Positions 2,694 to 50,200 of a DNA stretch of 64,000 nt are shown piece after piece. The notes below the pieces were generated by a model. That model worked only from the letters and a program-made list of their open reading frames with translations. It searched no databases and had not been told where the DNA came from. The number at the start of each line of letters is the position of its first letter. The first letter of the stretch is position 1. Source of the stretch: Haematococcus lacustris (Eukaryota; Chlorophyta; Chlorophyceae; Chlamydomonadales; Haematococcaceae); NCBI GenBank assembly GCA_030144725.1, contig JASKMD010000003.1, positions 15,702,582-15,766,581 on the forward strand. Reading direction: 5' to 3'. A program made the translations under genes and the position numbers.

Positions 2694-2734
2694 TAGTCTT
2701 CATGCCTGGTGGGCTGCTCATGGTTGCACTGCTT

Positions 2735-3824: not shown

Positions 3825-3859
3825 TGCTGTGTAGGAGTCATGCACTTTTTCTTACATTC

Positions 3860-13300: not shown

Positions 13301-16300
13301 GCTGGAACACGACCAGACGTCAGGTGCGGGTTCGCCCCCGCCTTGTGTCCCCGCACTGTTTGTGTTCCCGCACTGTTTGTGTTCCCGTACTGTTTGTGGC
13401 CCCGCGTTGTGTCCTGCCAAAATGGTAATTGTGCTCGGCCGCAGGTCATCAAGGTCCCGGAGGGCGCTGTGCTGCGCGGCTGCAAGAAGACGAGGCGCAA
13501 GCTAAAGGAGCACCTCCAGCTGCGGGCTGAGGTGCACTCCCAGCTCCGCGTAATCGCCTCTTTGTTTGTGCTAAGAATCTTTCTGACATGCCTGGTGGGC
13601 TACCCCACCCCGGGCTTCCCCAGCGCCCCCACACCCCCAGCCGTGCAGCCCCCCCAAGCCCCTGATGCACCCCCCCACTCCCCCCGCGTGCCCCTGCCCA
13701 GCCTGCCCCAGCCCAGCCTGCCAGCATGGAGTGAGCCAGAGCCACAGTCTGACTCGGAGTCAGAGTCAGAGCCTGAGCTAGTCATGCAACCCCCCCCCCA
13801 AGGCGCTGTAGCGCCCGTCTTGCAGCCCTTGCACCCGCAGCACCCACTGGCCCTCCCTTGCCCCTTGACTGCGAGGACCCTGTCATGCTCAAGCAGCTCA
13901 AGGAATTCAGCCAGTTCTATGCCAATCCCACAGTCTACAACCAGCTGCAGCGGCGCCTTGTGCGCAAAAGGCAGCGCCGCCACCCCATGCTCATGCCCGT
14001 TTTTGCGGACCCCAGCAACCAGGCGCTGCTGGCCAAGCTGCAGGAGTTGGGCAACATTGATCTGAGGGGTGACACCAACACCATCGGAGCGCACTCCATG
14101 CAGCTGGCGGTGGCCATGCAGCAGCACTACTCCAACCCAGGCAAGTAATGGTGGTATTCAGACTCCTGACCTGACCTGACCTGACCTGACCTGACCTGAC
14201 CTGACCTGACCTGACCTGACCTGACCTGACCTGACCTGACCTGACCTGACCTGACCTGACCTGACCTGACCTGACCTGACCTGACCTGACCTGACCTGAC
14301 CTGACCTGACCTGACCTGACCTGACCTGACCTGACCTGACCTGACCTGACCTGACCTGACCTGACCTGACCTGACCTGACCTGACCTGACCTGACCTGAC
14401 CTGACCTGACCTGACCTGACCTGACCTGACCTGACCTGACCTGACCTGACCTGACCTGACCTGACCTGACCTGACCTGACCTGACCTGACCTGACCTGAC
14501 CTGACCTGACCTGACCTGACCTGACCTGACCTGACCTGACCTGACCTGACCTGACCTGACCTGACCTGACCTGACCTGACCTGACCTGACCTGACCTGAC
14601 CTGACCTGACCTGACCTGACCTGACCTGACCTGACCTGACCTGACCTGACCTGACCTGACCTGACCTGACCTGACCTGACCTGACCTGACCTGACCTGAC
14701 CTGACCTGACCTGACCTGACCTGACCTGACCTGACCTGACCTGACCTGACCTGACCTGACCTGACCTGACCTGACCTGACCTGACCTGCAGAGCGCTTCG
14801 TCAAGCTGTACGCCAAGGCAGCCAGGGCCCGGCTAGGCTGGAGCGGGGAGGAGGGCGCAGCTGTTCATCAAGATGGCGTGCGGGTATGGCATCAACGCCC
14901 AAAGCTCAGAGCTGCAAGCCGCCACCCTGGACAAGGGGCATGTGGCTGACCTGATAGAGGAGGCCGACACGCACCGCCGCCTATTGGGCATGAAAAAGCA
15001 AGGCTCCCTGCAGGACACCCTGCCCCTGCCCTGCCGCATGCGACATGCAGTGCATGTGTGCAGACGGCTAGAGCAGTGGCAGCAGCCCCCCACCCCCCCT
15101 GTGCCAGGGCAGCCAAAGCGCGGCAAGAGGCGTGGGGTTGGTCCCCCGGACCCTGACCTGCCCACCCCCCTTCACCCTCACCCCCATGGCCAGGGTGGGG
15201 GTGCACTTTGTCAAACTGGACAGCAGGGTGCTGCATGGGGTGTGCAAGCAGCTGGGCCTGACCAAGGAGACCCAGGCAGCATTCACCTCACAGCCAGCAC
15301 TGAGCCACAACTGGGCCAGGTGGTTCAACACGCGCAAGCTTCGCAACAAGGGGTTTCAATTTGAGAGGAGTAGACAGACGGTGTCAGTGTGTGCGTCTAC
15401 CATTACACGCGCCCCCTCCCCCCTCCTCCACCAGCCCCCCCCCAGCTGCCAGCAGCAGCAGCAGCAGCCCAAGTGCAGCAGCAGCAGCGGCCCATGCAGT
15501 GGGACTCCCCCACATAGGCAGTGGCATAGCTGAGAGCCGTGAGTATGTGTTTGACCCAGAGACAGAGTGGGGTGGGCATCGACCCTGGCGTCACCCAGGC
15601 AGTCAGCGCAGCCTCTGGGATGAGACGACAGGCCAGCTGGTAGCTGACCAGCTGGCCCAGTGGAAGCTGACCAAGGGCCAGGTGAAGCATGCCAGCGGCC
15701 TAAACAATGCCCGCCGCACCACTCAGAAGTGGCTGGCTCCGATCCAGCCCCACCTCCAGCACCTGGCAGCAGCAAGCTCAGCCGGCACCTCCCTGGAGTC
15801 AAACCTGAAGCACATCACTGTCACCCTGGCCACCTGGGACGCAGTGTGGGAGGTGTACCTGGACCCCAAGTGGGCACGGCAGCGGCTGAGGCTGTACGGA
15901 GCTCAGGACCGGGCGCTGGAGCAGTTCTTCAAGAAGTGAATGGCAAGCAGCCCTGTCAGGAGGAGCTGGACCATGATCAGCCCACCAGGCGTCCAGGTTG
16001 GAAGCCCCCAGCAGGGCAGGTGGAACAGCGCCTGGTGCGCCCAGCCTGGAGCCAGCAGCGTGACCAGCCAGTGCGGGGCCTGATGTGGTGCCCGGTGGTG
16101 GCCCCCCGCAAGCCCCCACAGGCCCCACGCAGCAGCCAGGAAGCCACACCGGCAGCAGCCTCAGAGCCAGGGCCCAGCACTCCCCAAGCGCAGCAAGCGC
16201 ACCAAGGCTGAGCCGGCAGCTGAGCCCACCAAGGGCAAAGGCAAGGCTGCCGAAGCAAAGCCAGCCCCACAGCCAGGCAGGTGGCTGGGCAGGGACTGCA

Positions 16301-28700: not shown

Positions 28701-31619
28701 GAGGGAAGAGGAGGAGAGATGCACGTGCAGGGTTTCAAAGGGTGGGTGCCGATACAGGGTGTAGGGGTCACTTACTTTGAGCCACTGGATGGCGCAGCGT
28801 AGCACACCTGCAAGCACAATGAACCAGGAAGCACAGTGGATGACTGGCCATCTTGTCAGCCCCACGCAGGCTACGACCTACACCCTGCTGAGTATGATGC
28901 CGCCCCCTGCCCTGGCATCCGCTCTCCCCCAGCCCCCTGTGCCTCTTGCATCCGTGCCGCACTCCCAAAGCTGCCCCCGGAGACCCCTAGCAGCTGCGAG
29001 AGCGAGCCCCCAAGGCCCAAGCCCAGCAGCCTGTAGCACAGTAGCATGTGTGCACCGCATATGTGTGCCTACATCAGTGCATGTGTTTCATGCCATCATA
29101 GATTGCCCGGCCTTCGCAAGCGGGTTGGGGTAGTGAATCACGTAGTGGTACCGGATGCTTGCTGCATGCAAACAGATCGGACTACAGATAACACAGCCCC
29201 TGCCCTGTAGTAATAGTAGGGGAACAACTGTGCTGAGTATGATGGTGCGAACGTGCAGCTGCAAGCTTGAGCAGGTAGCCCTCTGGGTAAAGAGCAAGCC
29301 TCTAGAGCATGTCGGTAGGTGTGTCATGCCCAGGAGATTGAACTAGCCACTGAGGTACTATTGGGTGCGACTGGTACATCCAGTAATGGATATGTTGTAA
29401 TAGATACCATTTCCACCCCAATCGAATTCTTGCCCTTCATATTGCTCACTATACTTGAGCACAAACACATCAGCCAAACCACTTCCAAGACACTGGTAAT
29501 ACATTCTTGACCAGAATTCGACAACAGATTAGTGAGGCAGCATTGGCCCTGTACAGTGTTGTGTGAGACGGTGTGACGGATACCATCATACTGGGATGTG
29601 TAACAGTGCAGTGTGTGTGAGAAGGAGTGAGCGGGGTTTGAGTAGCTGCTGATTCCCAGCAAGGTGCTGCAGCCTGGCAGGCTCAAAGAGCATCACCCAC
29701 CGCTGGCCTCTTGGGGTCAAAGCAGTTGGCGCGGTTGAGACTTGCACCTGAGGAGCTCTGGGTCACCAGGGGGCACTGCCCGCCCACCGTGTCCTCCTGC
29801 ACCCAGGCGCTCTGGGCCTGGCCTTGGCCGCCACCCAGCAGGGCTGACACGCCGGCCCGGTCAGAATCAGAGGAGAAGGTGGCAAGGCGAGCACCGGAAC
29901 GCGAGCAGGCCTGCAGCGCATAACAACAGCTGTAAGGGTAAGCAGGGCTGCACGGGTGGGGATGAGGAGGTGCCGGGCATGAAAGCTGGGGTGGGGTGGG
30001 GAGAGGGCAGGGATGTGAGGGGGAGGTTTGACCCCACAGGGCTGAGATGCGATGCAGGGCGCAGCGGGGTGGTATGGGGTGGTGCCAGGAACCCTAAGGG
30101 CTGCAAGAGCACCACCAAGGGTGCAGAGAGCAGCGGAAGGGTAGGGTCAAAACGTTGCGTGCAGGGTCATACCCTGCTGTGAGCAAGGTTGAACCAGGAA
30201 GCACAGTGGATGACTGGCCATCTTGTCAGCCCCCCGGCTGATGGTAAAGTTGTCGATGTTGCCAATGTAACTGTTGCCAGTGTAAGTCGCGAGAGTGATA
30301 GTTGCCAATGTAAGTCGCGAAGCCCCATCTACTACAGAGCGCGATGAAGGGCAAGAAGCGCAAGGGTGCGGATGAGCCCAAACAGCCCAAACCCAAGGTC
30401 CCCAAGCCAAAGCCCAAGGACAAGCCTGACACAGTGGGCTGGGTAGGTGGGGGGGGGTGGGGTGGGTGGGTGGGGGGCAGGGGAGGGGTGGGTGGGGGGC
30501 CAAGGCCGTGCTGCAGGCCTGCCGCAAGGTGGTGGAGAGGCTCAACAGCGGCAATCCAACCGACAGGGTGCCAGGCAAGGTGGTGACTGTGGATGAGTTC
30601 CGCACCAGCAGGGTCAGCTCAATCTTGAACAGCCCCCAGCCCTGTGAGGAGGAGCTGGACAGCAGCAAGCCCACCAGGCCTAAAGGCTGGAAGCCCAAGC
30701 CGGGTCAGGTGCAGGACCGCTTGTTGCGGTCAGCCTGGAGCAAGCGGTTTGAGGCGCCAGTGCGGGGCCTCATGTGGTGCCCTTGGCTGGCCCAGGCCAC
30801 CCCTGGGGACCTTGGCAAATGGGTGGACAGGGACTGCAACGCAGCCCTCAACCTCCAGCGGGCAGGGGAGAGCAAGTGGCGCCCACTGGAGCTGTGCAGG
30901 TGGCAACACCGAGGAAGGCTCCCTGCCCAGGGCAGGGAGTACCCAGCACTGGGCTTCAAGCAGCTGCGAGAGCGAGCCCCCAAGGCCCAAGCCCAGCAGC
31001 CTGTAGCACAGTAGCATGTGTGCACCGCATATGTGTGCCTACATCAGTGCATGTGTTTCATGCCATCATAGATTGCCCGGCCTTCGCAAGCGGGTTGGGG
31101 TAGTGAATCACGTATTGGTACCGGATGCTTGCTGCATGCAAACAAACCGGATAACAGATAACACAGCCCCTGCCCTGTAGTAATAGTAGGGGAACAACTG
31201 TGCTGTGAGCAAGGTGTCTGAGTTTTCCTTGAAGCGCCATGGGCGTGCCAAGCAGCTGGTGGTCTTCTTTGGTGCAGCTGGCATTGGCACCGGGGGAGGC
31301 TGGGGTGCTGACGCTGTGCTGCGGGCCTGCTGCAAGGTGATGTGCAGACCCAGGGGCACACACCTGGCTGGCCGACTGCCAGTCAGAGGGTGGCTGGGTG
31401 GTGATGAAGTAGCCTGAGGGTGTGGGAGATGCGGAAGGTGCTGGCGCTGGGGCGCTCTGGAATGGAGGGGACTGGGCAGGGGAAGGAGAGGGAAGCGTTG
31501 CGGGAGGGGCGGCAGGCAGGGAGGAAGAGGGGGCAGGCTGAAGGCTTGAGGGGACCAGCAGGCTCAGTGGCATGCCGGACTTGGGCACCCTGTCGGCTGT
31601 CATCAGGCCCCAGTTGTAC
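25711..31619 (-). CDS. C-type-lectin-like protein with two CTLDs (5' end not found)
   Basis: Exons on the minus strand: 31619-31364, 29910-29701, 28585-28416, 26906-26755, 26400-26312, 25905-25711. All joins are in phase and the stop is at 25711-25713. A Ser/Pro/Ala-rich stretch leads into CTLD 1 (GYFITTQPPSDWQSASQ|ACSRSGARLATFSSDSD ... SAWVQED ... NRANCF). A linker is followed by CTLD 2 (VRYQLITQTQDFNSLAAF, CPSGTTFSSFSGTDKEA, LAIWVNENTQNG) ending LPFICKG, the standard closing pFIC motif. C-type lectin folds bind sugars or proteins, usually extracellularly. The first exon listed enters in phase 2, so at least one upstream exon, with any signal peptide, is missing. Introns hold Fanzor copies A2, A3 and B8. 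Ca-binding EPN/QPD motifs are not obvious, so carbohydrate binding is uncertain. Confidence 0.75.
26915..27008. repeat. GTGTGGGTGCAG minisatellite
   Basis: Tandem GTGCAGGTGTGG units in lectin-gene intron 4 (in the order listed), immediately upstream of its 3' splice site at 26907. Cys-Thr-His-Thr frames on the minus strand are artefacts of the repeat. Confidence 0.85.
27515..28244 (+). pseudogene. Fanzor-like nuclease relic, subfamily B copy 8
   Basis: Starts within DWVPPAGQVNHRLL, then WSLRHAKCVRGLRWCHEVPP, a proline-rich insertion, RWLARDTNPCLNFQRIG and the complete B tail (LPPIGKEYHQRYKLVNDRLP, RARNNA, stop 28054-28056). The second motif is ARDTN, so the first Asp of DRD is Ala while the catalytic Asp is kept. 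The 3' module is partly deleted. The 3' flank to about 28330 matches, inverted, the flank of copy 10 (37575-37680), so one of the two was made by segmental duplication. It lies in a lectin-gene intron. Confidence 0.7.
28900..29230 (+). mobile_element. Composite Fanzor subfamily A 3'-end copy with foreign 5' segment
   Basis: Bounded by perfect 14-bp direct repeats TGCTGAGTATGATG (28886-28899 and 29231-29244). The first ~85 bp match the Ser/Pro-rich gene exon at 45762-45848 (about 90%). The rest is the A-family tail (QLRERAPKAQAQQPVAQ in a shifted frame) and its 3' module ending GGGGAACAACTG. It lies in the lectin gene between exons 29701 and 28585. Confidence 0.75.
30190..31200 (+). pseudogene. 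Fanzor-like nuclease, subfamily A copy 3, internally deleted
   Basis: Flanked by 15-bp direct repeats TGCTGTGAGCAAGGT (30175-30189 and 31201-31215). The leader carries two GTTGCCAATGTAAGTCGCG-like repeats, then a lysine-rich NLS-like first exon (MKGKKRKGADEPKQPKPKVP) at 30344 up to GWV|GTAGGT. A G-rich stretch (30438-30500) follows, then GGWGAKAVLQACRKVV, VTVDEFRTSRVSS, LMWCPWLAQ, WVDRDCNAALNLQRAG and the usual tail, with stop at 31012-31014. RuvC-I and the middle domain are missing, so it cannot cut DNA as a normal Fanzor. It lies in a lectin-gene intron in antisense orientation. Confidence 0.8.
31015..31200 (+). other. Subfamily A noncoding 3' module (candidate guide-RNA region)
   Basis: About 185 bp after the stop, conserved at 3639-3824, 29036-29230, here, 35635-35799 plus 36089-36130 (minus), and 42145-42335 (minus). 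Landmarks are CCGCATATGTGTGCCTACAT, CGGCCTTCGCAAGCGGGTTG, TGCATGCAAACA and the end GTAGGGGAACAACTG. Conservation without coding need, in the position of the TnpB/Fanzor guide RNA, suggests an RNA or cis role. The RNA itself is inferred. Confidence 0.4.
31216..31362 (+). pseudogene. Fanzor RuvC-II-region fragment
   Basis: Encodes AKQLVVFFGAAGIGTGGGWG and ADAVLRACCKV, closely matching 11423-11530 of subfamily C copy 2. It sits between the right duplication of copy A3 and the lectin exon, as an older insertion. Confidence 0.65.
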
Positions 31620-31791
31620 CTGCGGGAAGCAAGGGGCTAAAACAGGTAACAAGGCCAATGCGTAATGCGTAATCCTGACCCACCCCATCACTCCGTGAAA
31701 GCCGTGATAACCCAAGGGGTCGAAACAGGTAAGGGAGAAGGGAGGTGGGAGAGGAGCACATACACTGGAGGACGTTTAACACACAGGCCAG

Positions 31792-32105
31792 CAAAACTTA
31801 TTCAACAAGGAACAACATGCTTGACTGTGGGTAATCTCACTAAGCTAAATAACTTGCAGCAACCTCGGTCGCACCCTTGATGACTGCAAACCCCGCTCCG
31901 GTGGCACGTTCTGGGGCTAATCCCCCATGACCACTGGGCACCTCATCAAAACTAACAGCTTAATGCTTTGTAAGGCTCACAGCCTGTGCATACTACTAGG
32001 GCCTATGGGTCATTGCGGGCCCGGCCATCAATGCCCCGCCGGTACTCTGCAGCCCGGTGCAGCCTCTGCCTGTCCTTAGGCAGCCGGTCATTGACCAGCT
32101 TGTAG
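31792..32105 (-). mobile_element. Fanzor subfamily B 3'-end copy
   Basis: The last ~35 codons (KLVNDRLPK to AEYRRGIDGRARND, where the stop region differs) plus the 3' module, truncated at 32105. It lies between the lectin-like and GH17 genes. No clear target duplication was found. Confidence 0.65.
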
Positions 32106-32366
32106 CGTCCACCAGATGCCTGATTTTTAGCTCAAACTGGCAAGACCCATTAAAGGATTCCCGTGCTGTGTTCACATGATGAGACAAGTGCTTGTCACAT
32201 GTACTACTTGCCCGCTCAAATGACAAGGGATGTGCTTATGAGGCCTTCCAGAGCCAGGGCCATGGACTGGGTGCATGTTTGTTGATTATGAATGCTCACA
32301 CAGCTCACTCACCGTTGACGGTGAACAACAGCAAGTGCTTTATGATCGAGTGGCTCAGTTCTGAAC

Positions 32367-35223
32367 TCACTCGTAGGTGCACTGGCCATTTGAGCAGGAG
32401 TCCAAAGGGGAGCAGAAGGAACAGGGGGCGTAGGTGCGCTTCCAGTCCGCATCAAACGGCTCAAAGTAGTAGTACGATATGCCTGCAGCCAGGCAGATCC
32501 AGCCACTGCCTGGAGCCCCTGACCCAGACACATGTGCTCACTGGCCACAAGCCCGTCACCAGTTGGCCCACAGGAGGCTCCTTACAACTCGGTGGACGTA
32601 TGCAGAGCGGGCGAGCAGCTAATACACAGCTGCAGTTGCAGCAATGGCATCGGCTACAGCATGGCTGGTGGTTGTAGTGGTTGTGAAGGGTCACCAGCAT
32701 CTGTTGCACCCCTGGCCCCGAGCTCCACACCCTCAGTGTGAACCATACCTGCGAATGCTGCCTGGGAAACGAAGGAGGCTAGCATTGCAGCTGAAGCTGC
32801 GACGGAGGGAGCCGCCATGAAGAGCGGGGCAGAGGAGGGAAAGCCTGAGGGCCGGTAATTGCTGCACACAACAACAACAATGACACATGTCAGGTGCATG
32901 TGTACAGGTATTTGCATCTTGGTGCTTGGCAGCAGACAAGCATGGCAGCTGAGAGTGAGCTGTAGCATTCATTGACATATTGGTGTAAGCTGCAGCATAG
33001 CATGCTGTGTGTACGGTATGGCGACTTCAACCCAAGTAACGTACCAGCAGCGCTCGCCAGCTGTAGGGAACCCAGTCTCAGCGAGCACCACCCTCTTGCC
33101 AAGCGACTTCTGGAGCCCCTGCACCCTGTAGAGTTAGGGAAGGGGTCAGGTCAGGGTCAAATTCAGGGTCAAAGTTAAAGTCAGGGTCAGGTCAGGGTCA
33201 GGTGGTTTGATGGGGAGTGGTAGGTAAGGGTGAGATGCAGTAAGAATCCAAGAAAGAAAAAGAGCCTGATGGTCACCCACACCTTTCCTTATCTTGTACA
33301 ACCTGCCAATGTGACATAGCCCAACAGCATTGTTGGCCGCATGGCCTACAAGCCAACACCACGACATGACTTACATGGATGTCTCAATATTAGTGTGAGA
33401 TGACTTGGCCAATGTTACAGATGTATCTTATGTAATATATGTGATTGACCCATGCAATACATCTTACTTCAGCCCTGGATGATTATGGGAGATACAAATG
33501 ATTAGCTTGCTAAACCACCACAAGTGCAAAGATAGCTCACCTCTGGACAGCCCAGGTGGCAGCGTCATAGCAGCCTGTGATGTTCAGACCTGTCAACAGG
33601 CCACACAGATGTGTCCGGCTTACATAAACGAGGCACAGAGCAACAGTGCAAGCACAACACATGCAGCAACCGCAATAGCAGCAACAGCGATAGCCCTGGC
33701 AGTGCGAGCAGTAGCAGCTGTCGGGGTGGCGGCCCTATTCATGACATGTTTTGCCTCATGCCAGATGCCGCATGCGCCTGACCTTGGCAGGTGGCTGGGA
33801 GGCCTTCAAAGTACGGGTGCGCATTCACCCCCACAAAGTCAATCTCCGGCAGCAGCTGGGCGGCATAGGAGCCCTGCTCCGACACCTTGTCCCACACAGA
33901 CGCAATCTCCACAGAGGTCACTGGGATGCTGCTGACCCTCTTCACAAGGTCCCGTCCTCTGCAACAGCACAGCCCGAGATGTAACATTCCCAACCCTGGC
34001 ATGATAGGCCACAGGAACCGTGTGGCTATACATCTCCGCACACCTTGGTCATACACATGCAGGTGAGCAGTGTAATGCAAGCAGGACCCCTTAAGGTCAG
34101 AGCGAGCACTCCACCAAACACGGCGACTCCACTGTACTTTTCCCACAGCCCCACACACAGCCATGAGCAGTGGGTAGACTTGCTCACCACGCAGGCCCCC
34201 ATGTCATCACAGCCCAGACCATTGGGCTCAGGGTTCGACTAGCCCACCCTGGCCATGCCTGCTGGAGCTTGCACACATGCTCCCACAACACACAACATTG
34301 CCAGCTGCGGTGACGAGCGCCCATGATGGATCAGTGTCAACAGCATCGCAATGGGGATGGTGGCACCCCATTATTGTGCCAGACCTCCTTGACATAAAGG
34401 GCCGTCAGCACACCTCTTGACAAGTGGCAGCACAAAGGAGGGCTCCAGGCCAAGAAAAGAGACAGGCTCGTTCCCTACAGCCACTGATTGGATGACCCCA
34501 CTGTAGCCAGACAGCAGGCCAGGTAGTGCAGCTAGCTCCTGCAGCAAACATATGCATCAGTCACATACATACACACACGTTCAGCAATGTGTGTGGGTTA
34601 CATTATCTGTTGCTGTTCCTTTCTCGCTTTGCTGTGTTATGCGGTGCGCTGTACTGATGCGCTGATGCGCTGTGTAAAGTTGTCGATGTGTGTTGTTCTC
34701 AGCTCTTTCTCAGGGAAGTATCTTTCTCTGTCTTGTTCTCAACTCTTTCTCAGGGACAAGCCATTGCCACTGTCAGTGCACTCTGACCAAGAAAGCATAT
34801 ACTGGCCCTTCACAATCCTCCTTGCTGCTGTACCTCCTCGTTTGATTTGGAGTCCGAGCCAATCCACAGCCCCAGCATCACTCGCATCGAGTTCTTCTCT
34901 GCAAAGGCCAGGATTTGTTGGGTGGCAGGGAGGCAAGCCGCTACCCCGTACCTGCAAGACTTGCACATCACCCGTCAGATACGAGCTGTTGCACGTCTAG
35001 GAAGCAAAGTGACTCACATGCGCAGGTAACTTGTATATTGCGCAAGGATTTTGAGGTCGCGCGCAACATCCGAGGCGGACAAGCAGAAGTTGTTCTTGTC
35101 GCTTGAGTACGGGGAGTATGCCAGGCCGCGCTCCTGTGCTGAAGCGCCGCTCAGCAACGACTGACAACAAACGACAAAAAGGCCCAAAACCCAAAGTGGC
35201 TTCACTGCCTGTCGACACATCAT
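32367..35223 (-). CDS. GH17 family beta-1,3-glucan hydrolase, secreted, 8 exons
   Basis: Exons: 35223-35018, 34951-34834, 34538-34414, 33958-33783, 33589-33541, 33125-33045, 32861-32749, 32482-32367. Phases agree throughout, giving 327 residues. A signal peptide (LWVLGLFVVCCQSLLSGASA) precedes RGLAYSPYSSDKNNFCLSA, the usual GH17 start. LRMYGV and FAEKNSMRVMLGLWIG follow. The acid/base motif is VAVGNEP (E132), then LLPEIDFVGVNAHPYFEG. The nucleophile motif is VVLAETGFPTAGE (E241) and YYYFEPFDADWK comes near the end. GH17 enzymes cleave or rearrange beta-1,3-glucans, here probably in the cell wall or periplasm. Exon 5 could start 15 bases later. Intron 5 is rich in CTGAC near its 3' end, and intron 2 holds a short match to the Fanzor-A left end (GTGTAAAGTTGTCGATG at 34674). 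Confidence 0.88.
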
Positions 35224-35634
35224 CGCCGCTTGAAATCTAAGTTGCCTCTGACCTCTGCGTGTGCTAGTGGCTTGTCGCTGCCAAGTCCGAGGCTCAGCGG
35301 TTCGGGTCTCGAACTCTCACATTCAAAGTTCGTATTTGATTGGGGATCGCAACTTCTTGCCAGCTCGTGATCAAGAATATAGCATTTCTTACGGGGACAG
35401 CAGCGGTAGCAGCAGCAGTAACAGCAGCACCTTCCCACTGCCACTTCAGCGAGTACTATGCTATTACTACACACGAGCAGCAAGCAAGCTAGATGAAGCT
35501 GGTATGTAACTGCAGAATACAAACTAACGATATGTTCCATGGCAGCGCGCACGGCGAGTGCGTAAAGTCCGCTAATGTCGCGCATCATGCTATGAAAAGA
35601 TCGTAAACTTCGCTGACTGCCCTCTCCCCAGCAC
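35224..35634. other. Upstream of the GH17 gene
   Basis: Probable promoter and 5' UTR of the glucanase gene. It contains an AGCAGC-rich patch (35398-35432). No other gene is seen. Confidence 0.45.
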
Positions 35635-36830
35635 AGTTGTTCCCCTACTATTACTACAGGGCAGGGGCTGTGTTATCTGTTATCCGGTTTGTTTGCATGC
35701 AGCAAGCATCCGGTACCAATACGTGATTCACTACCCCAACCCGCTTGCGAAGGCCGGGCAATCTATGATGGCATGAAACACATGCACTGATGTAGGCACC
35801 AGTGTTTTTTTTTTCAAAACAGCCACGCTGATGCTGGTCACGAAGGGTCCAGGACCGTCACATGGCTGGTTACGCAGCTGGTCCCGACTGGTTACGAAAA
35901 CCAAACATCGCAGCATTTTTTCAAGGCAAAAGTCATTTTTAATGAATAATTTTCACGTAAAAGACATTTTTCGGTTACGAAGCAGCCGAGGCCAGCCAAC
36001 GCAAGGGTCCGTTTGGTAACGAAATTCAGGCCTAGAAAACAGGCTTTTGGTTCCGATCGTTACGTATTACGCAAAAAAAAAATCACTGGTAGGCACACAT
36101 ATGCGGTGCACACATGCTACTGTGCTACAGGCTGCTGGGCTTGGGCCTTGGGGGCTCGCTCTCGCAGCTGCTTGAAGCCCAGTGCTGGGTACTCCCTGCC
36201 CTGGGCAGGAAGCCTTCCTCGGTGTTGCCACCTGCACAGCTCCAGTGGGCGCCACCTGCTCTCCTGATGGCTGCGTTGTCTGGGTCAGCAAAGAAGGCCT
36301 TGGGGATTTGGCGCAGGTTCTGCCTGTGTGCGGGGCCGCGCATAATCTGCTTCCAGCCTGACAGCTCGCTGGGTGCGGCGAACTCCGCAGTCCAGTCCTG
36401 GACGTTGTGGGCTGCCAGTGGGTCCATGATGTTGAGGGGTTGGGGAGGGACTGGGGCAGGGGGGAGGGGTCGCCTACTGGCCAGCCTGCTGCTGCTGCGC
36501 TCCTGCAGCTTGGGCTGCCAGGCAGGCTGGGCTGGGCCTGCTGCTGGACCTGCTGCAAGGCTGCCAGGGAGAGGGTCCAGGGGGGCTGCACCCTGGGCTG
36601 GAGGTGGCTGCACTGAGGGAGGGGGAGGGGCAGGATGGAAGCCTGGGGTAGGAGGCCCCACCAGGCACTTGGCCAGCAGCACCAGGGCCGCTAGGGACAC
36701 AAGCTTGCGCTGCTTGTGGTGGATGCCCATCCTCAGCCTAAGGTGCGCCACAATCTTGTTTTTGTCGATTTACCCACATTGTGGGCGATTTACCCACATT
36801 GGCAACAGTTACATTGGCAACTATCCCCTT
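35635..36830 (-). pseudogene. Fanzor-like subfamily A copy, internally deleted, split by a MITE
   Basis: On the minus strand the leader has GTTGCCAATGT repeats, then an N-terminal block (RKLVSLAALVLLAKCLVGPP, a proline-rich stretch, DWTAEFAAPSELSGWKQIMR and FFADPDNAAI) matching the N-terminal part of subfamily C copy 3. It jumps directly to the last ~45 residues (GGAHWSCAGG in a shifted frame) and the A-type 3' module. All RuvC motifs are deleted. A 289-bp hAT-like element interrupts the 3' module at 35800-36088. The end is GGGGAACAACTG followed by TGCTG, as in the other A copies. Confidence 0.75.
35800..36088. mobile_element. hAT-type MITE, 289 bp, 8-bp TSD
   Basis: Starts CAGTGTTTTTTTTTTC and ends AAAAAAAAAATCACTG, inverted termini of the hAT CAGTG type. 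GTAGGCAC is duplicated on both sides (35792-35799 and 36089-36096). Subterminal GGTTACGA/GGTTACGC motifs repeat inside. There is no ORF. Removing it restores the conserved subfamily A 3' module exactly. Confidence 0.9.
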
Positions 36831-36840
36831 CCCCTTCCTT

Positions 36841-37681
36841 CTCTGAGTTCTTTCTCTCCTAGGTAGTTCCCCTTCTTTTTCCCTTTCTCTCTGTTCTCTC
36901 CTTAGTCTTTTACCTTTGGAGGTTGGCTTGTATCCACCCGAGCCCTACCTCCATAGTGTAACAACTACTACTACTATCTTACATTGACAACTATATTGGG
37001 CTTGAGATACATGGCATACATGGATATAGTTTGGCCTTGCTGTTTTCTATAGCTAAAAAAAAATCATACTTGGCAGCGCCTCCATGGCTGTCAATGGCGC
37101 AGGTGGAGAGGGGCTGTGTTGGTAAGGAGTTAGGAGAAGGAAGAGGGTGGAAAGGAAGGGAAAGGTCAGGGGAGGTAGGCATGGTAATGACCAGGTGGTG
37201 GCATCCTGGATGCCAGTCCTGCCTCCAGGCAGTCGCCTCGTGGCTGGTGAACCTAGTTGCCCGCTACTGGCCCGGTACTGCTGGCCATGTTGGCTAGGAG
37301 CTCGACACCTTCAAGACGTTGCTGCACCTCTCTCAAGGCAAGCGGTGCTTTACATGCGCATGCGCTTTACAATATTTACATATATACAAGATTTACATGC
37401 GCTTTACAATATGGCAAGCTGGCAGACCAACACAACTTATTCAACAAGGAACAACATGTCGGCCTGTGGGTGATCTCACGCTGGAGGAGGGCGATGCCCA
37501 TGGCGGCCTAACGTAGCGTGCCTCTCATGTCAGCCCAGTGTATGATAACTTGATAGTAAAAATATCCTGGGGCTATTGAAGTGTGGGTGGTTAGCCCCTC
37601 TTTTGTACGTCATCACATCTCACTGGGCATCCCCTCATTTGTATGTCATCACTGGGCATCCATGACTACCAACATGCTCAA
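36841..37681. other. Noncoding spacer with small subfamily B fragment
   Basis: A CT-rich stretch (36835-36905), then a GGCATACATGGATATAG segment near 37012 that also borders the Harbinger element. At 37436-37490 there is a short degenerate subfamily B right end (minus strand). No gene is recognised. Confidence 0.5.
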
Positions 37682-38680
37682 TCAAACAAAACTCATTCAA
37701 CAAGGAACAACATGCTTGACTGTGGGTAATCTTACTCAGCTACTACAAACGTGTTGTAGCATCCTCGGTCGCACCCTTGATGACTGCAAACCCCACTCCG
37801 ATGGCACGTTCTGGGGCTAATCCCCCTTGACCACTGGGCACCTCATCAAAACTAACAGCTTAATGCTTGAAAGGCTAACAGCCTGTGCAAACTACTAGAG
37901 CCTACGCATTGTTGCGGGCCCGGCCATCAATGCCCCGCCGGTACTCTGCAGCCCGGTGCAGCCGCTGCCTGCCCTTGGGCAGCCGGTCATTGACCAGCTT
38001 GTAGCGCTGATGGTACTCCTTGCCAATGGGGGGCAGAGCATCTAGGTCCTCCCAGCTGCACAGCTCCAGGGGGCGCTGCTTGCTCTCCACAATGCGCTGG
38101 AAGTTCAGGCACGGGTTGGTGTCCCGGTCCAGCCACCTGCCCCATGGGGGGGCCTGGGGTCGTGGCACTGGGCCAGGTGGGGGCTGGGCAGGGAGCTGGT
38201 CCTGGGCTAGGGGAGGTGGAGGGGGGTCCTCGGCAGGAGGAGGGGGGTTCTGGGCAAGGGGAGCTGGGGGAGGGGGAGGGGGAGGAGGGTCGGGCGGCAC
38301 CTCATGGCACCACTTCAGGCCCCGCACACACTTAGCATGCCGCAGGCTCCAGGCTGGGCGCAACAGCCGGTGGTTGACCTGACCTGCTGGGGGTACCCAG
38401 TCTGCGGGCCTGGGCTGGTTAGGCGGCAGGTGCAGCTCACATGGCTGGGGGGCGTGCACAGACGAGCTGACACGGCTGGTGCGGAACTCGTCCACGATCA
38501 CAAGCCTGTCAGGCCTGGGATCCGTGCTGGTCCTGTTGGGCTGCTCCACCACCTTACCGCCCGCACCGCCCCCGCCTTCCACCCACCCTGGCTGAAGTTG
38601 CCCGCTCCCAGGAACACCACCACTCCTCTCTCTTGGTGGTAGTGCTGGCGTGACACCCACTTCATCCCATTCACCACCTG
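37682..38680 (-). pseudogene. Fanzor-like nuclease, subfamily B copy 10 (most complete B)
   Basis: After an intron ending CTGCAG at 38681, the coding frame gives VVNGMKWVSRQHYHQERSGV, VVFLGAGNFSQGGWKAGAVR, then a frame change and KVVEQPNRTSTDPRPD, VIVDEFRTSRVSS (alternative RuvC-II Glu), PCELHLPPNQPRPADW, VRGLKWCHEVPP, a ~50-residue proline-rich insertion, DRDTNPCLNFQRI (RuvC-III) and the B tail to the stop at 37902-37904. The frame change lies where copy 4 still reads REGFRKMLQQ, so it is a real lesion. The 3' module runs to 37682. Confidence 0.78.
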
Positions 38681-38869
38681 CAGGTCAGGTCAGGTCAGGT
38701 CAGGTCAGGGTCAGGGTCAGGGTCAGGTCAGGTCAGGTCAGGTCAGGTCAGGTCAGGTCAGGTCAGGTCAGGTCAGGTCAGGTCAGGTCAGGTCAGGTCA
38801 GGTCAGGTCAGGTCAGGTCAGGTCAGGTCAGGTCAGGTCAGGTCAGGTCAGGTCAGGTCAGGTCAGGTC
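38681..38869. repeat. (GGTCA)n pentamer array in Fanzor B intron
   Basis: About 37 units with a few GGGTCA hexamers. On the minus strand it is (CTGAC)n ending at CTGCAG, directly before the coding block of the subfamily B copy, as in the subfamily C introns. Confidence 0.95.
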
Positions 38870-39362
38870 ATCCAACACATACGCGGCGCAACATGTCTTG
38901 AACGTCTTGCACATGATGCAACCTTCGTATGCAGCTCCATATGCTACCTCACTATAGTTGCCTCCTGAATGCCTATGCCATGCTCCACTTGTGACACAGC
39001 AACTGCCTTCCATCTGCTCACGAGGAGCAAGCTGCACGTCACGACAGTTCGGCTAGCCTTTCCTCATGACAGTAGACAAGCCTGTCTGCGGCTCTCATTC
39101 ATGAATGACAGTTGACTCTGAACGCGGTGGTTGCTGGTAATGCATTTATACAAACACTGTTGCAATACCCACAGGCATTAGAAATGAGTCGTAGGTTTAA
39201 GAATCCCGGTCAACCTCGCACGTCTGCGGCATCTCTGGGTCTACAGGAATAGCCAGCTGGCACACCGCAAACAACTGGGTGTTTCAGCGCTCCGTTGGGT
39301 CTGCGGCTGGGCGTTGACCTGCGAGACCAGAGCTGACACATCCCCAGCTCTGGCTTGCAGCG
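38870..39362. other. Intergenic, no gene recognised
   Basis: Between the pentamer array and the first ATG of the Ser/Pro-rich gene; it probably contains that gene's promoter. Confidence 0.4.
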
Positions 39363-42300
39363 ATGGCAGGTACAGAAGTCAGCAGTCAGATGTTAAGTAG
39401 CAACTCCGCCAGGTTGCTCGACACACGTGTGCATGTCCCTAGAGGTAGCATTTGCACAACTCTAGCTAAGCATCCCCAGGCATGCTCAGGTGGCCAAACA
39501 ACTCCTGGAGGCCAACCCTTGCCATCGCATGCATCTGCCAACCTTGAGCTGGCAATGTGCATTCGACAGGTGCATTGGAGGGATGCCACCACAAGGATGG
39601 TGAGAGTTTGAGCCAGCCTGCCGCAGAACAAGCCATAGGCCGGAGCAGGGCACTAAGCGTAGTGTCGGCCCCACCTACACCTTTGAAATCGGACTCTGCC
39701 CTCATGGGTGCATTGGAGCAGCATGAGCAGGCTACCAGTAAACCATTGCACAAGCTCGCAACCAACTCAACAGCCACGCACTCCACAGCAACAGCACTGA
39801 GCCAAAGTGTGTCAATTGTGGAGGACACTGCTGGAGAGCCGGCCTGCCTCTTGCCTGGGGGTTGCCACTTCTCTGCCCTGGAGGCTGAACTGACAGAAAT
39901 TGAGCGCGTGTTCATGAACTGCTCCATTCACCGCCGCACCAAGAGCGAGGACGGGGCAAAGCCTGGCCGCAGCAGTCCTGTGGGGCGTAGAAGTCCAAGT
40001 CCTGAAGGGCAGAGTCATTCAGCTCCTGGGGGGCTTGGGTCTGCTGCCCCACCCCAGGCAGGCCCCAGCAGCATGCCGACAAGCTCCACACAGCCAGCAG
40101 ACAATGTTCAGACCCAGCTGCAGCATCTAGAAGCGATCGCTCAGCAGAGCGGGTCGGTACTGCCTGCCCCAGCTGGCAAGCGGCGCCGTGCTCAGCTCCA
40201 GGAGCTCAGCCGGATGCAGGCACAGATGCTCACGGAGCTGCACCAGAGGGCTTCCCACCACCAAGCTGACTACCTAGCAGTGCCTGTGCAGCCATTGTCG
40301 GAGCCGTCAGAGTGTGTGTATCGCAGCACTGCAACCAGCCTTCATGACGCAGCGGTGTCAGCGGCCAGTGACCATGCGGCTGCAGAGCTGCAAACGTGCC
40401 ACGGCCAAGTCTTGCCGGCAGAAGTCAAGCAAGGTGATGCCCTGCACTTTTGCAATTCATCCTTGGCTGCTGTGTGTTTCTGTTGTGATGCTTACTGCTG
40501 AACAGCTTGGCATGTGGCACTTGTGGCTGCGGGTTTCTTGGGGATGGAATATCGTCTCTATCAAGTCTTGCTGACTGAGCTTGCTACCATAGCTCAGCTG
40601 CCTTGGACTTTGGGCGTGACACATGGCACGCCTGGTGACAGACAATTGCCTCAACCCTGCACCTAAGTAAGCTGGCTCCTGCATTTGGCGTTCCTGTTGC
40701 AGTGCACAGCTATCCATCGCAATGGGACGACGTGGTAGGGCCAGTGGATACCCTGCAAGAGTGTGCTTGGCAGTCCCATGCCTCACTTCCCATGTTCACA
40801 CATGTCGCTTCAGATGTGCTTGTGTGCGACACACTGCCAGGGCTGAGAGGCTCTGCAGCCCCAGCTGTAAGGCGCAACTCCATGTCTTGCAAGCTTGTCT
40901 TGCTGCAGGAGCGCACGCCACCTCATCCAGTGAGCTGTCCTCCCTGTCAGCAGCCAGTGAAGCGGCAGTAGCGGCAGAAGCTCCAGCTGACAGGGCAGTT
41001 GCTTCCCACATGCCCAATGCCTCAGGCACGGCCTACTTGGACTCTACAGCTGCAGCAGCAGTCCCAGCATTGGTGCCTGCCCCATGGGAGTTGGCTGCAG
41101 CACCACCGCCCCTGACAGGCGCACTGCACATGCTCAACGCTAACAATACAGGTGCGACAACAACACTATACCTCATGCAACACATCTCCTGCTCAGTGCA
41201 TATTGCCCCATACAACTATGAGGCTACGTTGTCTGTAATCGCCAGTACCTAATACCTAATGTAAGCAACAGCTTAAGCATTGCCTAGTGCACACATGCTA
41301 TTGTGCTCCAGGCTGCTGGGCTTGGGCTTTGGGCGCTCAGTCTCGCAGCTGCTTGCAGCCCAACGCTGGGTACTCCTTGCCCTTGGCAGCAGCCGCTGCT
41401 TGGTGTTGCCACCTGCACATCTCCAGTGGGCGCCATGTGGCCTCCCCAGCCCGCTGGAGGTTGAGAGCTGCGTTGCAGTCCCTGTCCACCCATTTGCCAA
41501 TGTCACCAGGGGTGGCCTGGTCCAGCTTAGGGCACCACATGAGCCCCCGTACTGGTGCCTCAAACCGCTTGCTCCAGGCTAACTGCACTAAGCGGCCCTG
41601 CACCTGACCTGGCTGGGGCTACCAACCTACAGGCCTGGTGGGCTCGCTGCGGTCTAGCTCCATCTTACAGGGCTAGGGGCTGGTCATAGCTGAGCTGACC
41701 ATGCTGGTGCAGAATCCATCTACCGTCACCACCTTGCCTGGCACCCTGTCTGGTGGCCTCCCGCTGTTGGTCTTCTCAACCACCTTGCGGCAGGCCTGCA
41801 GCACGGCCTTGGCCCCCCACCCACCCCGCGTGGCAATGCCAGCGATGACATCTCCTGCTAAATGCTGGCCTGTGGGTGGTCCTTCCTGAACTATAACATA
41901 TTCATCCATGGGCACTATAACCTATTCATCCTTGACGGCTGCACATTCTAGCCTGGTTCAGGCATAGCACTCGGACCCTAGGCCTGTCTTGCAGCATTGT
42001 GACAACATCAACATTGTCAGCAGGTGCCCCATAACCGCCCCTTGCAGCCAATACCAGCACCTTCCTCATTGGCCCACAAAGGCAGAAACAGGTCCCGCCA
42101 AACGGGGTGGCGTCACTATTTTTTTGGGATAGCTAATACCAGCACAGTTGTTCCCCTACTATTACTACAGGGCAGGGGCTGTGTCATCTGTTATCCGGTT
42201 TGTTTGCATGCAGCAAGCATCCGGTACCAATACGTGATTCACTATCCCAACCCGCTTGCGAAGGCTGGGCAATCTATTTTGGCATGAAACACATGCACTG

Positions 42301-45300
42301 ATGTAGGCACACATATGCGGTGCACACATGCTACTGTGCTACAGGCTGCTGGGCTTGGGCCTTGGGGGCTCACTCTCGCAGCTTCTTGAAGCCCAGTGCT
42401 GGGTACTCCCTGCCCTGGGCAGGAAGCCTTCCTCGGTGTTGCCACCTGCACAGCTCCAGTGGGCGCCACCTGCTCTCCCCTGCCCGCTGGAGGTTGAGGG
42501 CTGCGTTGCAGTCCCTGTCCACCCATTTGCCAAGGTCCCCAGGGGTGGCCTGGGCCAGCCAAGGGCACCACATGAGGCCCCGCACTGGCGCCTCAAACCG
42601 CTTGCTCCAGGCTGACCGCAACAAGCGGTCCTGCACCTGTCCCGGCTTGGGCTTCCAGCCTTTAGGCCTGGTGGGCTTGCTGCGGTCCAGCTCCTCCTCA
42701 CAGGGCTGGGGGCTGTTCAGGATTGAGCTGACCCTGCTGGTGCGGAACTCATCCACAGTCACCACCTTGCCTGGCACCCTGTCGGTTGGATTGCCGCTGT
42801 TGAGCCTCTCCACCACCTTGCGGCAGGCCTGCAGCACGGCCTTGGCCCCCCACCCACCCCGCGTGCCAATGGCTGCGTTGCCAAAGAACACCACCAGCTG
42901 CTTGCGGGTCCCCCACTCCTGCTGGGACACGCTGGCTGCCTCCTCCTCCAGCTGCATGGCACACAAGGCACACACAATGCGCATGACATCCTTGGCAGAA
43001 CTGTGGACATGGGCACCTAGCAGGTCACATGTGGGGGCGGTCATCAGCCCTTGGCCTTGTACCTCCCCCCCAACCCTTGGCACTCCCACCTTCATGAAGT
43101 AGCGCTCCAGGACCGTCTCCTGCGCGCCATGCAGCCTCATCCTTTCAGCCAGGGTGACGGCCACATGCCTCTGGATGGCCACCTGGGAGGTGCCTGCTGG
43201 GGTGGCTGCTGCCAGGTGCTGCAGCTCCAGCTTGATGTTGTCATTCCACCGCTGAGTGTTGCGGCGAGCCTGGATCAGGCCGCTGTCATGCTGCACCTGG
43301 CTCCTGGTCAGCTTGCTACTGTAGAAGCCTTGCAGGCGGCCATCTGCATGCCACATCCCTGAAGCTGCGCTGACTGCCTGGATGGCCCCAGGGTCCAGCC
43401 CCCTCGAGCTGGCCTCCCCCTTCAGCCTAGCCTTACGCGCCCTCCCTTGTGGCGGTACGGGGCCTACCCAGCCCACTGTGTCAGGCTTGTCCTTGGGCTT
43501 TGGCTTGGGGACCTTGGGTTTGGGCTGTTTGGGCTCTTCCGCACCCTTGCGCTTCTTGCCCTTCATCGCGCTCTGTAGTAGATGGTACTTCGCGACTTAC
43601 ATTGGCAACTGTCACTCCCGCGACTTACATTGGCAACAGTTACATTGGCAACATCGACAACTTTACACTCACTCAACGCCGACAGCTAATACCAGCATGG
43701 GCCCCAGCATGGGCCCCAGGTGCAGTGTATCATACTTGTCCATAATATGGTATCAAGCAATCCCAGTTGTGTAGTGTCAGCTGCTGATCCTTCGCCCTGC
43801 CTTCCTTTGTTGTGTTGTCTCTCTGCTCGCAGCAAAACAGGCAGAGCGGCAGAGCAGCCCCTCATCCCTCACTAGGCACAGCTTTGGCACAGCCAGCCAA
43901 TGGGTGGGATCCCTGACTGCAGCAGCTGCAGCGGCTGTGGGCGAGGTGGGCGTAAGCAAAGCCGACCGAGCCATGCTACACCAAGCAGCTGTGCAGCTAC
44001 AGCACCGTCAGCCAACTCACCAACAGGCTTTTCAACATGTTGCAGCGCATCAGAGCTACCTGTATGTGCCAGCCTCTCCCTCCCAGCCCCTCCATGTCCA
44101 GGCCCCCTCCCCTCAGCACCTCTCCCTCCATGCTTCCAAGGCTGCCTTCACCTCCATGGCTAGAGGGGTCAGTGGCCCTTCACCAGTGAGGCCCAGTGTT
44201 GCTTCCTCCATCAACCGCGGCAGCCCACCCCCTCCCCTTCCACGCTCAGGGGCTGGCACCTCCCCTCGCCGGGCTCTCGGCTCCCACCCCTCGCCCGCCA
44301 CTGACAGAACTGGAAGCCCTAATCTGCGCTATGGCCGTTTGCCTGCCAGCCTGTCTGCACACACCATGCTGGCCCCATTCTTTTCCGCTTCTGCCACCAC
44401 CGCCGCTGCCACTGGCAGCACTTCAGCGAACCTAGCCAGAGGCCGCAGCTCCACACCGCCCTCAAAGCTACAGAGCTACAACTCAACAAGTGCCACAGTG
44501 CACGTGGAAGCAACGCTGCCAGCCTCTATAAGGAGTGGCAGGCTGAGCCCCCACCCTTCCCTTCAACCACAGCCAGATTATTTCAGCCTAGCACAGGCCC
44601 ACAAGGGTGCCCCTGCCAGCCACACCACACACACCTTCGTGCCAGCGAGCCACACCCACATGGGTCCGGCCTCCCAGGCCAGGCTCTCTAGCCTGCCTAA
44701 CCCTCAAACGTCACTGCACCAGCAGGCCCTGTCAAACCACTGGTTGGACACCTCCCTCAACATTCGCGCCACTGCTAACACTGACGCCACCAGGTTCCCA
44801 GCAGCTCCTGCTTCAGCTGTGGAGCCCGCACCTCCATCCGGACTGCTGCGGCCCGAGCCCCCTGCCTTGCAGCTCCATGCCCATGCCATGCTGCACGCCC
44901 TCCCCCTGCTACCCGCAGCCACCCCTGCCTCTAACATCCTTCCCTTCTCACCAGCAGCTGTGCTAGCCGCCCCTCCAGACTCAGCTGTGTCTGTGCCTCC
45001 CCCTCATCATCATGCCGTCACCATGACGGGCCAACCAGGTGCCAAGCCCCTCCACGCTGAGCTGCTGCTGGCAGAGACCCGCACAACCCAGTTGAATGTG
45101 TCCAGCCCAGGCAAACCTGCACTGGCCAGCACTGTAGCCACCACCTCTCAGCTCTTTGGCTCTGCCCGCCCTGAGCTGCACTCGTCTGCCCTCCTTTCCC
45201 CTGGGCACCCCAGGCTGAGCAGGGCGCCCCAGGCGGGAGCAGAGCAGCCGCCCCTCCAGCTGCTGATGCACCAGCTACAGGGCAAGCAGGCCCAGCAGGC

Positions 45301-47212: not shown

Positions 47213-50200
47213 TTACAGGATCTTGTTGCGGATGTCCTCCAACTTTTTCAAAACCTCGCCAGGTGTGCGGGTCAACTCCTCCCCGATGCTGCGTTGCTTG
47301 GCGTTTGGCACCTGCGGCCAGCAAGGGCATGCGTCCTATGAGCGTCTGGTGTCGACCGCAGTACTGGCAAAGGTGTGTTTGTTGAGTAAGATGTCACTGG
47401 CAGCAGCGGACATCGAGGCGGGCAACAAGCCACGTCATCAGGGTATGTGATCAGGGTATGCAGAAGCAAGTGAAAATGGCAAGAAAAACAGGGCAGAGGT
47501 TGAGTCAGCACGGATGCCTACCAGAACCCAGGTTGAACCAGGTGGCCTGGAGAGTCAGACCCTGCTCTACTCACAGAGGGGTATTGAGAGCATAGGTCGC
47601 CATCCACACAGTCCTTGACGGGAATGTAGGCGGAGCGGAAGGCCATGTGGTCACGGCCAGCTAGAGGCGGGTGCTCTTGCCGCAAGTGCATCTCCAGGTG
47701 CGTGAAGAAGTCCGCGTCCTCCTTGCTGCTGAAGGGATACAGCACCCCTATGGCCCCCATCACTGTGCCATACACGATAACCTGTGGCAGCCGGGGTCAA
47801 GACCAGGGTCTGGGTCACACTCAAGTTTGGATTAGGGTTTATGTCAGGTTCGTTTTTTATTTTTCGAAATCTAGTGACTGTGTGACGGTTTTAAGTTAGG
47901 GTTGTATGCATCAGCACCAGCAGGGTCCATGCAACCCAGTGTGTCGGGCTCCAATGCAGTTTGAGCCAGGAAAGCGAGGAAAGCCGGTACCTACCAGACC
48001 ACATTCAAGCCAGCTGTCATGTCTTGGCGCTAGCTATATGGACTGTAAGAATGATGGCCTGGACTCTCCTTGGCATAGGGGCATAGTGGCATTGGTGGAG
48101 GTGCTCAGTGGCTGTGGTGCTACTGTACCGGTGCTGTGCATGCTAGGGGTGCATGCCACTGCCTGCAGTGCACACCATGTTGCCTCAGCTTCACTCTGCC
48201 CCTCGCCCCTGCCCCTTTCCCCTGTGTCCCGCACCTCCTGGCCTCCAGGCTGCAGGGCTGCACGCTGCATGGCGGTGATGGTGTCGCCGATGTGGAAGTT
48301 GGTGATGGCCTGCAGCTTGTGAGGGGCGCCGTTCAGCTTGCCTGTGGAAGCTGCTAGCTTGCCACCAGTGGGGTCCTCTTCCACCTGCAACTCAAGGCGT
48401 GGCATGGCATGGCGTGGCGTGGCGCGGTGTTGTGTTGTGCGGCGCAGCGCTCCCGCCTGAAAGGCCATAGTAGGGGTGCCGCAGGGGTGGGAGGAGGGTG
48501 GTGTGGTGTGGTGTGGTGTGGTGTGGTGTGGTGTGGTGTGGTGTGGTGTGGTGTGGTGTGGTGTGGTGTGGTGTGGTGTGGTGTGGTGTGGTGTGGTGTG
48601 GTGTGGTGTGGTGTGGTGTGGTGTGGTGTGGTGTGGGTAGGTCAGGCATCACAGCAGGTAAGGCTAGGGTTCTAACCCTTTCTTTACCATCAACCAGGTC
48701 CAACCCACGGCGAGGGCGCTGCCAGCATGCATAGGTGCAAGCTTTCCACCGCTGCAGCACATATCCCACGACTGTGGCTAGTGATGACAAGCTAGAGCAG
48801 CAGCAGCCCCTGCAGCCCCTGGGCAGCGCACCTGGGCTGAGATGTCAGCAGGCAGCCGCAGCACTGTCAGGTTGCCAAACTTGTCTCCCACGGCGAAGGT
48901 GTCAAAGTCCAGTGGCAGGATGCTGGTCACGAATCGTGGCATAGTGTCGTCAGCAAAAATGTAAAAAATGTTCTCTGCTTTCTTGTACTGCAAGCAGGCA
49001 ATGTGAAGGCAGCAGAGCAGCCTGGTATCGGCAGCCTTAGAAAAGCCAGAGCTGACCAGGGTAGCTGACATTGCTGTGACTTGCAGTGAAGGTCTGGCAG
49101 GGTGGGTGAGATAGGGGTTAAGCCTGAGGCAGCCCTCCAGCTGCCCTCACCTTCATCAAGTGCACCGATTCTTGCGAGTCCCCGACAATGATGCGGCTGC
49201 CCTGCACCTGCAGCGACATGATGTTCACTGGCAACCTGCAGGGCACAGTGCGCAGTGTGGGCTGAGCCAGGTGACATCAACAGCCGACACAAGCTGCAGA
49301 GGCAGCAGAGGCAGAGACAGCAGGGAAGGAGCCACCACCGTGCCCACACCATATCCTGCACTCCTGACTGCCAGTCTTGGTTCAGCATTGTCAGCCCTGA
49401 CCACCCACCCCACTCCCTCACCCACTTTTTGTACTCGCATTTGCGCAGCAGCTTCTTCTTGCCCAGCTCATACAGGCGCAGCACTGGGCCGCTGCTGGCC
49501 AACAGGCGCCCCTTGTAGCCTGCCACAGCCCCCACTGGGCCGCCCTCTGTCTGTGTCTTGTGCAGCAGCTCCAAGCGCCGCCCACTATCCAGCACCCGAT
49601 ACACGCGGATGTAGGCGGCTGCACAGGCAAGCGGTGGAGGGCGGGGTGGCCAGCACTAGGGTCAGGTGCTACCCCTGCAGTGTGATGAGGGCAGCGGTCT
49701 GGGTGCAGGCGGGCAGGCGTGCTGCAGAATGCCTGCCCCCTCCTATTGTTCTGCCCTCACTTCCACTTCCCTTTTCGTTTCATGTCCTTCCCCTCCCTTC
49801 CCTCCCTCCCCATCCTCGATGCGCTGGCACCTTCACAGTCTGTGGGTAGGTACCGCAGCCCCTGCGCTGTGCCCACTGCCAGGAAGGTTTCCTGCGGGCC
49901 CTTGGTCGAGGGACTGAGGGCTGCTAGGCCCATGCAGGTCACGCCCTCGTTGTTGTCCAGCTCGGTGACAAAGGCGGTGGACAGGGTAGCGGGGTCCACC
50001 ACCCGCAAGCAAGCTGCCCACTGCCCTGGGCTGCCCTTGGGAGGCCCGTACTGCTCCTCCAGGGCAGCTGCCTCTTCATCAAACTCAACACCCTACGACA
50101 GGGTTGCCAATGTTAGGGGTAGGTGGGTGGTCTGGCAGGAAAAGGGAACAATGCAGAGCATTGCGCAAGTGGGTGGGTGGGCGGGTGGGTGGTGGGTGGG

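Follow-up and report, generated by a model that had tools for sequence, protein, structure and literature searches.

Fanzor-like proteins are annotated in volvocine algae. The closest described systems are the Chlamydomonas reinhardtii Fanzor1 elements CRe-1/2/3, whose genes have 5-10 exons and whose copies are truncated at the 5′ side and deleted internally but intact at the 3′ end, with filler at 5′ ends and duplications that vary from 7 to 19 bp and lie beside TTTT. One-ended transposition of the Helitron2 type, starting at the 3′ end, has been proposed for them (Bao & Jurka 2013, PMC3627910). Their 5′-complete copies carry a consensus 5′ end common to Helitrons and lack duplications, and most truncated copies are flanked by them (PMC3627910). 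The same source describes the Mucor circinelloides family MCi-2, in which the 3′ part is constant, the 5′ parts vary and the TSDs measure 11-12 bp. The truncation and duplication signature from which the original prediction for the present locus derived a new kind of Fanzor lineage, one riding LINE machinery, had been published in 2013 for CRe-1/2/3.

The window analysed here is a 64,000-nucleotide stretch of Haematococcus lacustris DNA. It contains five 3′ ends of one element family (3813+, 29219+, 31189+, 42156- and 35645-); the three copies with exact direct repeats that had been predicted are all present, but the family has five 3′ ends in the window, not three. Copy A1 (28900-29230, + strand), an unrelated 5′ leader of ~90 nt followed by the 3′-terminal ~240 nt of the family sequence, lies between two occurrences of TGCTGAGTATGATG (28886-28899 and 29231-29244). 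Copy A2 (30190-31200, +) consists of a 44-nt leader, 5′ UTR, a large internal deletion, the C-terminal RuvC part, 3′ UTR and tail, and is flanked by TGCTGTGAGCAAGGT (30175-30189 and 31201-31215). Its 3′ terminus is predicted to fold into a hairpin, CACAGCCCCT...AGGGGAACAACTGTG, followed by CTG (31162-31205, +). Copy A3 (42145-43683, - strand), the longest duplication-flanked copy in the window, has TGCTGGTATTAGCT on its 5′ side (43684-43697, -) and its 3′ side (42131-42144, -). The 5′ sides of A1-A3 are unlike, as had been noted, and all three copies end in GGGGAACAACTG.

The two remaining ends belong to copies with the same tail. For the copy at 3164-3829 (+), no repeat of at least 10 nt was found in the 3.8 kb that lie upstream of its end at 3813 in the window, and none of at least 10 nt was found for the copy at 35629-36264 (-). 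The latter is broken by a short element (35800-36088, -) with CAGTG...CACTG ends and, by eye, an 8-bp duplication, GTGCCTAC; from these features we take it to be hAT-like. A 44-nt segment upstream of A1 (28820-28863) is identical to the 5′ leader of A2 (30190-30233), 1.3 kb away, and that leader is possibly templated filler from the neighbouring locus. Elsewhere in the window, positions 62214-63188 (-) contain a DDE_Tnp_4 transposase frame (E 2.8e-33).

All five window ends read GGGGAACAACTG, then TGCTG, then unrelated sequence. The statement that the three duplications start with TGCTG is in part the same fact as the constancy of the ends, since all five ends precede TGCTG. Because GCTG is common to the element end and the target, it can be assigned to neither side.

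We searched the 308-Mb host genome with a 201-nt tail query, scoring 40 of 1477 first-look candidates, of which 30 were taken as loci; longer stretches were read at 20 places. The 3′ end ...AACAACTGTGCTG was read in 41/41 distinct copies from the window and the genome loci. At every one of these ends TGTGCTG directly follows AACAAC, though the search query stopped short of TGCTG, and the junction is base-exact in 41/41 copies, with neither poly-A nor extra bases. The exact 17-mer AGTAGGGGAACAACTGT occurs 306 times genome-wide and goes on with GCTG at 277 of these places; reversed-pattern controls for the exact-tail search gave 0. The tails of subfamilies A and D are both predicted to fold into a 3′-terminal hairpin, and the 192-nt A tail region as a whole is predicted to be no stabler than shuffled sequences (z -0.15). 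Rfam gave no match in the six source sequences queried.

An exact GCTG-anchored direct repeat of 11-16 nt (median 13.5 nt) lies within 4 kb upstream in 22/41 copies, a lower bound because the full 4 kb of upstream sequence was covered for 28/41. No GCTG-anchored repeat of at least 11 nt was found within 4 kb upstream in the other 19. When the flank of one copy was compared with the upstream region of another, a repeat of at least 11 nt appeared in 17/1630 such swapped-flank controls; at 13 nt or more the figures are 19/41 copies and 7/1630 controls. The duplications are far beyond chance. L012 and L047 share one target, which leaves no more than 21 independent duplications among the 22. L046 was counted with a 13-nt duplication, its 39-nt repeat being the flank of a neighbouring copy; the 39-nt repeat of L038, a duplicated flank, and the 11-nt repeat of L040, which at 5.3 kb lies beyond the 4-kb limit, were left out.

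Ordinary segmental duplication or ectopic recombination, with repeats arising by chance, would account for flanks that some copies have in common: A3 with L033, L012 with L047, L014 with L041, and L026, one flank of which recurs at L029 and the other at L024. Some copies that have no repeat have flanks in common with others, which shows that both recombination and segmental duplication have taken place. As a general explanation, however, segmental duplication is refuted by the swap control (22/41 against 17/1630); it holds for a few copies. A [CG]CTG-anchored repeat scan of 35 of 54 sequences also speaks against it, recovering the family tail in 20/99 rows (most of the loci having been chosen for the tail). 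We consider it highly improbable for the family. With 21 joined-flank queries against the sequences examined (window and loci), no empty site was spanned. At L012 (1100-1720) and L047 (8940-9345), on two contigs, one target and duplication accompany different 5′ parts; either one copy derives from the other by deletion or the site was used more than once.

The elements insert preferentially at CTGCTG. The base preceding GCTG at the 5′ sites is T in 18/22, against 33% among the 1905 GCTG sites of the window (p ~4e-6, uncorrected), and the base before that is C in 17/22, against a background of 36% (p ~1e-4, uncorrected).

The 22 duplication-flanked copies span 316 to 3718 nt, all different, and even the longest (3.66-3.72 kb) are still flanked by duplications of 13-15 nt. 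L021, L011 and L047 start within the coding part straight after the duplication, with microhomology at the 5′ junction of L021 (6 nt) and L011 (3 nt), scored by eye and without a control. In many copies an unrelated leader of up to ~450 nt precedes the common 5′ UTR, and internal deletions are frequent. By eye, no constant 5′ terminus was found among the 21 copies extending to the start-codon context; 5′ termini are in common only in pairs that also share upstream sequence (the L035 pair, L014/L041 and A3/L033).

Diverged relatives are present as well. A copy of subfamily D (7478-7780, -) has an 11-bp duplication, CTGTATGGAGT. The subfamily D tail reads ...GAGTTTTGTTTG, usually followed by CTG, and CTG-containing repeats of 11-17 nt accompany it in 5/16 rows (best of several offsets, without a swap control; two rows represent window copies that the loci also contain), which suggests that subfamily D behaves like subfamily A. 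Another Fanzor-like subfamily forms a near-identical inverted duplicate in the window (545-2694, -, and ~13905-16208, +) that contains a long CAGGT tandem array.

The 398-aa open frame of A3 (42370-43566, -) contains LDPG ... VDEFRTS ... DRDCNAALN in the RuvC D/E/D order. These three motifs recur in the protein of the long copies, in L045 together with TDGVSV, and a 371-codon C-terminal stretch is open in L049, L043 and L035. Within L049 (~6170-7950), an otherwise open copy, a 78-nt coding tandem repeat has grown to more than 1.6 kb. The published Fanzor motif is D-X(125-275)-[TS][TS] ... RD with a C4 zinc finger between [TS][TS]xx and RD (PMC3627910). The spacing from LDPG to TS, 233 residues in L049, L043 and L035 and 217 in A3, agrees with this motif, and DRD lies 78 residues past DEFRTS. 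In place of a C4 zinc finger, the four subfamily-A proteins have two cysteines between TS and RD, and one protein of another subfamily has three. Searches of Pfam, NCBIfam and PDB sequences gave no relevant match to the element proteins, and structure prediction of the A3 frame yielded no usable fold (pLDDT 34). Because of the two cysteines, the lack of a database match and the lack of a usable fold, we call the protein Fanzor-like; it may be a true Fanzor.

Two GT...AG segments interrupt the frame. One, of 153-206 nt, was seen at 9/9 distinct places, in 11 rows that include two re-reads, and the other, of 138, 146, 164 or 180 nt, at 4/4; several of the lengths are not multiples of 3. Judged from these features, the segments probably behave as introns. 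They are retained at 13/13 junctions in nine copies, which are not all independent, two pairs among the nine places having common flanks, and joined-exon probes across the copies examined found 0 spliced junctions. Retention at every junction argues against a spliced-mRNA intermediate. Together with the base-exact, tail-less 3′ junction, it makes a template of DNA or of unspliced RNA more likely than a spliced mRNA that a LINE carries, and on sequence grounds the intron test favours DNA.

Variable duplications with 5′ truncation are also the textbook pattern of target-primed reverse transcription (TPRT), and non-LTR retrotransposons are 3′-anchored and 5′-truncated, with variable TSDs. An RT element in trans, non-LTR or Penelope-like, would nick the bottom strand after CAGC, the RNA 3′ GCUG would pair with the CAGC primer, and early stops in cDNA synthesis would produce 5′ truncation and duplications. 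Such a process would fit the fixed 3′ end, the ragged 5′ ends, the variable 11-16 nt duplications, the GCTG common to element end and target, the microhomology in L021 and L011, and the predicted 3′-terminal hairpins; Penelope-like elements, moreover, are known to keep introns. The unspliced junctions stand against it, as does what was found of potential partners, and we judge TPRT possible but on the improbable side.

A profile search for RVT_1, in which the best 150 of 4540 candidates were scored, provided three loci, sampled from the strongest matches, that read as LTR elements and that we take, by their motifs, to be chromodomain LTR elements. Apart from one frame, a scan for RT and endonuclease motifs in the frames of the sequences examined found nothing convincing, and around a FADDT match at window positions 48781-49146 no RT was seen by eye. 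The exception, at L014 (35-1150, +), is a 372-aa C-terminal frame with no Pfam match above the cut-off, presumably from an L1-like LINE, judging by its motifs. This family has at least 110 matching places at 95-100% identity (110 scored of 3428 candidates). Its 3′ end is ATC-rich, with an inverted repeat, GTGTAAGCC...GGCTTACAC, close by, and the duplication of its L041 copy, the one readable case, starts with CATATATC, not GCTG. We rejected it as the tail donor because of this end and this duplication, that is, a different tail and a different target in one family, the target being read from one copy. The proposal that LINE machinery carries the elements is therefore not borne out: the one LINE family read, with its one readable duplication, shares neither 3′ end nor insertion preference with them, and their introns are unspliced. 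The broader proposal of 5′-truncating TPRT fares unevenly, duplications being present in 22/41 copies but introns being retained at 13/13 junctions and the link to a LINE being unsupported. The copies examined from the window and the genome loci do bear out a constant 3′ end (41/41), with duplications in 22/41 and, among 21 copies compared by eye, no constant 5′ end.

A version of TPRT that accommodates the introns would act in trans on unspliced nuclear RNA, through an intron-tolerant (e.g. Penelope-like) or stringent RT; we consider this unlikely. That the RT would read the 3′-terminal hairpin and prime from CAGC at CTGCTG sites, as this version supposes, seems to us just as doubtful. If it were true, CRe-1/2/3 would need reinterpretation.

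The Helitron N-terminal domain PF14214 has 18 matches in the genome. Within 200 kb of six of the seven strongest (on C22, C56 and C2, and three on C143), there was no exact tail among the first 100 of the 277 tails, a comparison that diverged tails would escape; the seventh strong match, on C542, lies outside those first 100. No Helitron with these element ends was found among the matches compared, nor was an autonomous partner found.

The elements differ from IS200/605-type and cut-and-paste elements in their constant 3′ end, variable 5′ end and variable-length duplications, as the original prediction held. IS200/605 and IS607 elements have constant left ends. Movement of this kind, by a single-strand mechanism or a serine recombinase with GCTG as the retained cleavage site, would suit the tetranucleotide common to end and target and the predicted terminal hairpin, but these elements leave no target duplications (PMC3627910), whereas duplications and variable 5′ ends are found here. 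This makes it a very remote prospect.

We regard one-ended, DNA-templated HUH/Helitron-type transposition in trans, a process of the same kind as for CRe-1/2/3, as the best explanation, and as somewhat probable. The elements, non-autonomous and encoding a Fanzor/TnpB-like protein, would copy themselves into CTGCTG-like sites, starting from a fixed 3′ end that bears the predicted hairpin. An HUH/Helitron-type enzyme, probably supplied in trans, would cut the target at (CT)GCTG and join the exact element 3′ end at the cut; the template would most likely be DNA; the 5′ end would mark the point where copying or strand capture stopped; and end repair would heal the 5′ side, leaving a duplication of ~11-16 bp and sometimes filler or microhomology. 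Against this one-ended Helitron reading stand the failure to find a Helitron with these ends, the lack of a constant 5′ terminus, the duplications around the longest copies, and the 19/41 copies without a duplication. What any mechanism has to explain is observed directly: a fixed 3′ end, a variable 5′ end, duplications, a target preference and retained intron-like segments. It is possible, and we prefer, that a one-ended HUH-type process rather than TPRT of unspliced RNA is responsible, and the LINE reading is disfavoured. The one-ended Helitron and reverse-transcription readings differ in their predictions on introns and partner ends, and this genome, where the family's 3′ ends run into the hundreds with 277 exact tails, is another in which to settle how transposase-less Fanzor-like genes copy themselves.

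With non-LTR retrotransposons and their passengers the elements share 3′ anchoring, 5′ truncation and variable duplications; unlike them, they show no RT, have no poly-A or microsatellite tail, keep their introns, and have no partner with the same tail among those found. Among open-licence papers, PMC10711439, PMC10432273 and PMC6338049 included, titles and abstract openings showed no report of LINE-mobilised Fanzors. The elements resemble MCi-2 in a constant 3′ part, differing 5′ regions, TSDs with a common motif and the lack of TIRs, but MCi-2 has the TSD motif ATAATTNNNN(N) and a 6-kb constant part, and one of its subfamilies contains part of a Crypton transposase. Helitron2 elements have a 3′ subterminal hairpin; here a terminal hairpin is predicted, in a 192-nt region no stabler than its shuffles. 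From CRe-1/2/3 the elements differ in their target (CTGCTG, with the tetranucleotide GCTG, versus TTTT or T-rich sequence), in showing no constant 5′ end, in the duplications around their longest copies, and in that full-length CRe copies share a 5′ end with Helitrons, whereas here none of the exact tails compared lies near six of the seven strongest Helitron matches. They share with CRe-1/2/3 the constant 3′ end, 5′ truncation, internal deletions, variable duplications beside a fixed tetranucleotide, 5′ filler and introns, and on this comparison they appear to be a further case of the published CRe-1/2/3-type behaviour, with another target.
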